From Nitrosopumilaceae archaeon (GTDB taxonomy: Archaea; Thermoproteota; Nitrososphaeria; Nitrososphaerales; Nitrosopumilaceae), in NCBI GenBank assembly GCA_030041535.1, contig JASHNR010000041.1, positions 1 through 38,367 of the forward strand: a stretch of 38,367 bases of DNA, written 5' to 3'. Under the pieces are notes generated by a model. That model ran no database searches. It was not told the origin of the DNA and worked only from the letters and a program-made list of their open reading frames with translations. A program made the position numbers and the translations under genes. Shown here piece by piece: positions 10,202-24,922 of this stretch (its first letter is position 1; each line of letters begins with the position of its first letter).

Positions 10202-10954
10202 TTATTTTTTATGTAGAAAAGAATTCATTCTATCTTCTCGTTCCTTGGTTGAAAAACAAAGAGACCATGAATAAATTTCGAGCTTGAGTCCAGTATCTAA
10301 ACTTGCATCCATTCCTTTATTGACAAGCATTTTAGATATGCCAACTGCAAAGTTACTGTTTTTTGCAATACTTTCAGCATAAGATTTGGTTTCAGAGAGC
10401 AGAGTTTCTGATGGAAAAACTTTGTTGACTAGACCCATTGACAGCGCCTCCTCTGCACTAATTCGTCTACCTGAAAAAATCAAGTCTTTTGCTCTTGCAG
10501 GACCTACAATTCGCAACAGCCTTTGTGTACCACCCCATCCCGGACAGATACCTAATGTTACTTCGGGTTGGCCTAGTTGTGCATTTGGTGATGCAAACCG
10601 AAGATCACAAGAGAGTGCCAGCTCACAGCCACCTCCTAGTGCATAACCGTTTATTGCAGCTATTACTGGTTTTTCCAATTTTTCTATCTTGTTTAGAACC
10701 TCGTGTCCCCTGAGTGCATATTTTTCTGCTTCTGTAGGCCCAATCTTGCTCATGTATTCAATATCTGCACCTGCAGAGAATGCTTTTTGTCCGGCTCCTG
10801 TAATTATGATCACTTTTGATGAATCTTTCTCCAATTCGTCTAAAATTGAAATAAACTCATCCATGACTTCAAGATTCATTGCGTTTAGTTTATCTGCTCT
10901 ATTTATCGTAATTTGGACAATGTTATTTTCTTTTTCTACCTTGAGGTATTGCAT
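10202..10954 (-). CDS. Enoyl-CoA hydratase/crotonase (likely 3-hydroxypropionyl-CoA dehydratase / crotonyl-CoA hydratase)
   Basis: A 250-residue crotonase-fold hydratase with both catalytic glutamates: Glu111 in G-G-G-C-E-L-A and Glu131 in G-Q-P-E-V-T-L-G. The oxyanion-hole segments A-G-A-D-I and G-Y-A-L-G-G-G are intact. In thaumarchaea a single promiscuous crotonase serves both dehydration of 3-hydroxypropionyl-CoA and hydration of crotonyl-CoA in the 3-hydroxypropionate/4-hydroxybutyrate carbon-fixation cycle; this protein looks like that enzyme by overall sequence, but other crotonase paralogues exist, so the exact role is inferred. No other cycle genes are adjacent. Confidence 0.85.
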   Translation of the reverse strand: MQYLKVEKENNIVQITINRADKLNAMNLEVMDEFISILDELEKDSSKVIIITGAGQKAFSAGADIEYMSKIGPTEAEKYALRGHEVLNKIEKLEKPVIAAINGYALGGGCELALSCDLRFASPNAQLGQPEVTLGICPGWGGTQRLLRIVGPARAKDLIFSGRRISAEEALSMGLVNKVFPSETLLSETKSYAESIAKNSNFAVGISKMLVNKGMDASLDTGLKLEIYSWSLCFSTKEREDRMNSFLHKK

Positions 10955-24402: not shown

Positions 24403-24568
24403 ATTTTTCAAAATTAATTCTAGTTTCTTGATTACAACTTGGTTGATCTTGAAAAATAATCTCATGATAATTAGTTGCGCCATCAATACAATTGAAAATT
24501 TATCGAGAAAGCAAACACCAAATCATCTAAGAATCTTAACGTTTATCGTAAAATTATTGTAAAACAAT

Positions 24569-24656
24569 GGGGCGTGGCCATTACCGCAGACTTACAGAGA
24601 TTACCTCTTACAATCCACAAAGTGGATTCATGTTAAGGTCTGCGCAGCCACGCTCT
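24569..24656 (+). ncRNA. Candidate multi-branched structured RNA
   Basis: Nested pairing is striking. Outer stem: 24569-24578 (GGGGCGTGGC) with 24647-24656 (GCCACGCTCT), 10 pairs counting two or three G-U. Second stem: CGCAGAC (24585-24591) with GTCTGCG (24638-24644), continued by TTA/TAA past a bulged G. Two hairpins branch inside: AGAG-ATTAC-CTCT (24596-24608) and AATCCAC-AAA-GTGGATT (24612-24628). A TATA-like GTTTATCG (24540-24547) lies 25 nt before the outer stem. The 88-nt element therefore looks like a compact RNA with a three-way junction, longer than a terminator and unlike a tRNA. I cannot match it to a known RNA. It lies in a 520-nt gap between TFB and GtrA. Confidence 0.55.
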
Positions 24657-24922
24657 CTAGGCAGTAGATTTTACATCCTTCTGCATTAATTTCTATAGAA
24701 GTTCAAAGTATTTATCATTTTATATATATTTTTAATATTTTTGATTACAATTATGAAAAATATTTGAAAAAGAAGTCAGAACAATATACAATCACATAAA
24801 CCACTTGTACAATATTTACAAGAATTTAGAAACAGTCCTAACAATTTGAATTATGATTTAGTTGTATAATGAATCAAAAAAAGATTTAGCATTTATTAAT
24901 GCACGTAAGATTGAAAGCTTCA
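24657..24922. other. AT-rich gap before the GtrA-type gene
   Basis: Nothing recognisable except the promoter of the next gene: TATA-like CATTTATTA at 24889-24898. Confidence 0.4.

Follow-up and report, generated by a model that had tools for sequence, protein, structure and literature searches.

A candidate translation-coupled RNA family with a conserved mini-ORF in ammonia-oxidising archaea of the Nitrosopumilaceae

The minus strand of a 38,367-nucleotide stretch of DNA from a Nitrosopumilaceae archaeon (hereafter, the window) carries a gene for a structured RNA, and comparative evidence makes it close to certain that this gene belongs to a genuine RNA family. The family was previously uncatalogued, and these searches found it in a single GTDB family, that of ammonia-oxidising archaea from marine and soil habitats. 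Comparison of the copies supports the RNA gene, its strand, its structure and a conserved open reading frame (ORF), with no detected constraint on the peptide and no fixed neighbour. The best explanation, which we hold with evenly balanced confidence, is a stand-alone, multi-copy, translation-coupled regulatory RNA whose conserved function would be to have ribosomes load and terminate on a leaderless mini-ORF rather than to make the peptide. The features of the window's copy are as follows, from the promoter to the 3′ tail.

24709..24715, minus strand: TATA box ATAAATA, its last base 22 nt before the predicted +1; box and spacing are common to every copy examined
24571..24686, minus strand: RNA gene of 116 nt, a full-length match to covariance models R1 and R2; alignment of 28 genus copies, homologues in 18 genera
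24657..24686, minus strand: predicted leaderless mini-ORF AUG CAG AAG GAU GUA AAA UCU ACU GCC UAG (MQKDVKSTA*), start and stop kept, with retention above neutral simulation
24661..24684, minus strand: 5′ hairpin GCAG-AA-GGAU-GUAAA-AUCU-A-CUGC within the mini-ORF, fold −6.8 kcal/mol
24647..24653, minus strand: P1 5′ strand GCGUGGC, beginning 3 nt after the stop codon
24638..24644, minus strand: P2 5′ strand CGCAGAC, with both-side changes in six of six counted P2 pairs
24612..24628, minus strand: P3 hairpin AAUCCAC-UUU-GUGGAUU, varying freely in sequence across the family
24596..24608, minus strand: P4 hairpin AGAG-GUAAU-CUCU with a GNRA-like pentaloop, the most conserved internal element
24585..24591, minus strand: P2 3′ strand GUCUGCG, changing with its partner
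24572..24578, minus strand: P1 3′ strand GCCACGC, covarying with the 5′ strand in other genera (GC, AU, GU and UA at the same pair)
24561..24564, minus strand: U4 run in a U-rich 3′ tail, a likely terminator; UUUU lies within 20 nt of the 3′ end in 100 of 145 copies

Strand, promoter and fold of the RNA gene

An earlier note on this DNA had placed a compact branched RNA on the plus strand at 24569–24656. The plus strand of this interval has a folding energy of −37.7 kcal/mol, compared with a mean of −19.7 kcal/mol for shuffled sequences (z −5.98), and 0 of 200 shuffles reached it, in agreement with the view that the fold is too ordered to be chance. The fold consists of a 10-bp outer stem, a 9-bp inner stem and two hairpins, so that the outer stem and the hairpins are as described while the inner stem does not exactly match the 7 bp plus 3 bp given. 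The minus strand of the same interval folds nearly as well (−34.8 kcal/mol, z −4.02), and so folding alone leaves the strand undecided. In an alignment of 84 copies, however, the paired positions contain 102 G-U wobbles and no A-C mismatches, as would be expected if selection acts on the minus-strand transcript. A plus-strand RNA was ruled out by this wobble pattern and by the lack of conservation of the upstream region and promoter on the plus strand. The TATA-like box seen 25 nt upstream on that strand is not kept among homologues, and the conserved TATA box belongs to the minus strand. The reported interval is part of the RNA gene, but its strand, promoter and ends have to be revised: the 5′ end reaches 24686, and the conserved 30 nt that hold the 5′ hairpin and the mini-ORF lie outside it.

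In a DNA-level search, 31 of the 37 genomes in the genus, counting the one that holds the window, gave hits at E < 1e-10, and the conservation extends past 24656 to about 24690. Read in the window's minus orientation, 29 complete copies, together with one that stops short at the end of its contig, have the 5′ block ATGCAGA..GAT..A..ATCTACTGC in common, and all but one that is cut off by its contig have the TATA box (ATAAATA or CTAAATA) with the 22-nt gap. Across 145 copies of the family, the distance from the TATA box to the predicted +1 is 22 nt in 123, 21 nt in 19 and 23 nt in 3. This spacing of 21–23 nt, for which the calibration on protein genes is thin, suggests that the start codon lies at or within a few nucleotides of +1. 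The gene is taken to begin with the first base of AUG (24686) and to finish with the conserved ...ACGCC, and a few further nucleotides of the U-rich tail likely belong to the RNA as well. The U4 run resembles an archaeal terminator and likely acts as one. The promoter motif and the U-rich tail are kept across copies, and on this basis a stand-alone transcript is predicted.

Covariance models brought out the compensatory changes in thaumarchaeal homologues on which the earlier note had made its structure depend. Within the genus (28 copies), P1 hardly changes and P2 shows covariation. Across the whole family (84 copies), compensatory changes are found in 14 of 21 pairs and 98.6% of cells are paired. 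These counts lean somewhat towards the genus structure, as the model to which the copies were aligned came from the genus, a part of the family. The observed covariation was reached by 0 of 500 shuffles, and slid registers gave at most 5 pairs. The inner GAG/CUC pairs of P4 are invariant in 84 of 84 copies and the loop is GNRA-like in most, suggesting sequence-specific recognition or a tertiary contact at P4 while the other helices covary. The GAGG and AUC of P4 fit by eye the thaumarchaeal anti-Shine-Dalgarno sequence, which has been published (PMC10783764). A role of P4 (GAGGNAAUC) as a Shine-Dalgarno-like element towards the 16S 3′ end was rejected, since its two middle bases vary to mismatches.

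The mini-ORF and its proposed coupling to the folded domain

All 145 copies have an NTG codon at the predicted +1, which lies 21–23 nt from the TATA box (ATG in 140, GTG in 4, TTG in 1); the ORF is also kept in the paralogue-2 copies that start with GTG. The first in-frame stop follows 8 codons in 14 copies, 9 in 120, 10 in 9 and 12 in 2, and so comes after 8–10 codons in 143 of 145. A conserved ORF inside a structured RNA, as in dual-function small RNAs, is therefore present in nearly every copy. In two loci (L087 and L095) the usual stop is lost and the ORF extends to 12 codons.

The 145 copies comprise 97 distinct ORF sequences and 85 peptides. On the copy tree, the identity of the stop codon switches among TAA, TGA and TAG about 29 times, a frequency similar to that of changes in codon 2 (33) and in the last sense codon (31). 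Neutral codon simulations with a similar number of changes kept the stop in 55–72% of tips on average, and the observed retention was reached in 0 of 1500 runs per setting. The mini-ORF is thus very probably under selection as an ORF, as judged from these sequence comparisons.

A purely non-coding RNA, in which initiator preference and the 5′ hairpin would incidentally produce the 5′ NTG and the later stop, is the strongest of the alternatives and nevertheless unlikely. Archaeal promoters usually have a purine at +1, and the ORF overlaps the hairpin in most copies (mean z −2.7 over the 97 distinct ORF sequences), so that this overlap could explain part of the ORF conservation. Against it, an NTG with an ORF of 8–10 codons occurs in 143 of 145 copies but at only 11 of 622 other TATA-like boxes in the same loci, two of the 11 being further copies of the RNA; this gives a background rate of about 1.5–1.8% for the loci around the copies. 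The stop, moreover, changes its identity but is almost never lost. In most groups the ORF also keeps its length of 27 nt, even as the hairpin changes register from group to group, and it is kept in the several copies that have little or no hairpin.

Somewhat less probable still is a micropeptide gene, whose product would be the peptide of 8–10 residues and whose folded domain would be a stabilising 3′ UTR. Start, stop and length are kept as this would require, and some residues recur (KD at positions 3–4 and a final ID). The amino acid sequence, however, shows no sign of constraint by either measure applied. Closely related nine-codon ORFs showed 68 single-codon changes, of which 19 are synonymous (0.28, against 0.22–0.28 expected without constraint), a small sample confounded by the 5′ hairpin, and third codon positions are not more variable than the others. 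A conserved peptide of the ENOD40 type was accordingly not found among the 85 peptides, and the 3′ domain is conserved more strongly than the peptide.

These observations lead to the hypothesis that the act of translation is what is conserved. We infer transcription, the exact +1, translation, coupling of the ribosome to P1 and a regulatory output. Transcription of each RNA would start from a TATA promoter of its own, on the NTG or no more than one base from it, and a ribosome would initiate on this NTG without a leader. Archaea translate leaderless messages (PMC7531240), which makes such initiation plausible. The ribosome would then read about nine codons through the 5′ hairpin and stop 0–5 nt before the long closed P1/P2 helix of the branched domain; the gap between stop and P1 is 3–5 nt in most copies, and in ten-codon copies the stop lies directly against P1. 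Given the size of the ribosome footprint, a terminating ribosome would extend into P1, and one paused at the stop would cover the hairpin as well. The 3′ domain may therefore switch state with ribosome occupancy, or the RNA may hold ribosomes. That translation rather than the peptide matters, and couples to the folded domain, appears about as probable as not when put in this general form; any specific output is less certain.

A bolder and more tentative version is that the family represents a class of archaeal RNA that works by being translated. Ribosomes would load on the fixed-length leaderless mini-ORF, about one ribosome footprint long, and their presence there would switch or hold a structured RNA that acts in trans; the peptide would be incidental. 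We know of no RNA family that keeps the length of a mini-ORF while its sequence is free.

Distribution, copy number and genomic neighbours

Model R1 detected the RNA in 160 of 241 genomes of the family. Of 350 genomes from across the order, the broader model R2 detected it in 190, which all belong to the window's GTDB family and represent 18 genera. No credible copy was found among about 145 genomes of the order's other families, and in five other-family genomes searched closely the best match had an E value of 0.53 over a 43-nt stretch. Four genomes of the family with a completeness of at least 90% (G055, G057, G239 and G241) gave no match even at E 1, possibly reflecting losses or strong divergence. 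A narrow scan of viral contigs with one pattern found no viral carriage.

Fourteen genomes searched closely contain 1–4 copies each at E < 0.01. This genome (G000) has four, on contigs C35 (the window), C14, C30 and C31. The other three are divergent, and each has its own TATA box: the C14 copy (L067/L199, G000:C14:15902-16031) has the ORF MFTKPQKMA, the C30 copy (L204, G000:C30:6223-6346) MPCVSADN, and the C31 copy (L208, G000:C31:14917-15038) MRKYANSID together with a different P4. In genome G238 two copies lie in tandem about 190 nt apart (L191 and L201, G238:C184:10092-10208 and 10401-10516), with ORFs of 9 and 8 codons.

In the window, tfb (PF00382) is the next gene downstream and is convergent with the RNA, and gtrA (PF04138) is divergent. 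The structured RNA proposed for the gap between these genes is real for the window's copy, but the tie to this gap does not extend to other genomes, where the neighbours differ. They vary between copies, and the downstream gene is usually convergent or unrelated. The commonest context is a convergent small protein with an N-terminal hydrophobic stretch, for which the fragment tested had no Pfam match. Another is convergence with a weakly YtkA-like protein, and others are unrelated genes. A protein of about 143 residues with a hydrophobic N-terminus (in L079 and L097, for example) is convergent in about 50 loci, mostly ending 2–5 nt from the RNA 3′ end.

The overlap of convergent 3′ ends may matter. 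That the RNA serves the convergent gene, whose stop codon is often 2–7 nt from the RNA end, as a terminator or antisense element is nonetheless improbable: in about 60 of about 128 copies the convergent gene encodes a small secreted or membrane protein, in most cases ending within 14 nt, but the RNA has a conserved promoter of its own, that neighbour is missing next to other copies (the window's among them), and the wobble pairs indicate the window's minus strand as the selected one. Marginally less probable again is that the RNA acts in cis on a neighbouring gene, as a leader, attenuator or riboswitch. A leader-peptide-like ORF followed by structure recalls bacterial attenuators, but no co-directional downstream gene is fixed across copies, which argues against such a leader; the downstream tfb of the window is convergent, the downstream genes elsewhere are mostly convergent or unrelated in varying contexts, and a U-rich tail follows the RNA. 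Regulation of tfb or gtrA in cis was ruled out by their convergent and divergent arrangement and by the other contexts elsewhere. A mobile or repeat element of the MITE type, whose inverted arms would give the fold and which would account for several copies per genome, is hardly credible, as same-genome copies are divergent, each has its own promoter and compensatory changes are maintained.

Relation to known RNAs and significance

The earlier note saw no tRNA, 5S, SRP or RNase P pattern, and the searches agree. ARAGORN found 0 tRNA or tmRNA genes in the window, and neither the whole window nor seven loci that hold other copies matched any Rfam 15 family at its gathering score. At E values up to 10, the surroundings of the window's element gave only two chance-level snoRNA matches, and the copy in L186 gave no credible match at permissive E values. 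No published description of the family was found in the literature searched, mainly open-access papers.

The nearest known systems share single features with the RNA. tmRNA combines RNA structure with a short frame some ten codons long; the archaeal RNA resembles it in this, but has no detected tRNA-like domain, and its frame has its own 5′ start codon. Bacterial leader-peptide attenuators of the trp, tna and erm types act in cis on a downstream gene, often in a codon- or peptide-dependent manner. They too place a short ORF directly before an RNA structure that a ribosome could disturb, whereas the archaeal RNA has neither a fixed downstream gene nor conserved codons. ENOD40 is a plant dual RNA with a short ORF of 12–13 residues and conserved structured domains (PMC10578108). 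The likeness drawn here is one of features and lies in the combination of a very short ORF, free of any downstream gene, with conserved structured domains in one RNA. ENOD40, however, is a long RNA, and its region-I peptide, where it occurs, is conserved; in the archaeal family the peptide varies, the ORF length is fixed and the ORF stands at the predicted 5′ end. Dual-function and ribosome-associated small RNAs have been reported in Haloferax volcanii (PMC12482152); these are likewise small archaeal RNAs, found on ribosomes and in some cases translated, while the present one is a lineage-wide family, known from sequence, with a same-length ORF at the predicted +1 in nearly every copy. Tan1, an abundant non-coding RNA of marine group II Euryarchaeota with a predicted complex structure (PMC5069720), is also a lineage-specific archaeal RNA, but it is 229 nt long and belongs to another phylum, a distinction drawn from its description.

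Genes of this kind are missed by routine annotation, being below the length used for calling protein genes and absent from Rfam. If the proposal is true, abundant ammonia oxidisers hold several copies per genome of an uncatalogued RNA in which a tiny reading frame is the one near-universal 5′ feature. The family would then provide a handle on leaderless initiation in archaea and a natural setting in which to ask whether an RNA can have translation itself, and not a peptide, as its conserved function.
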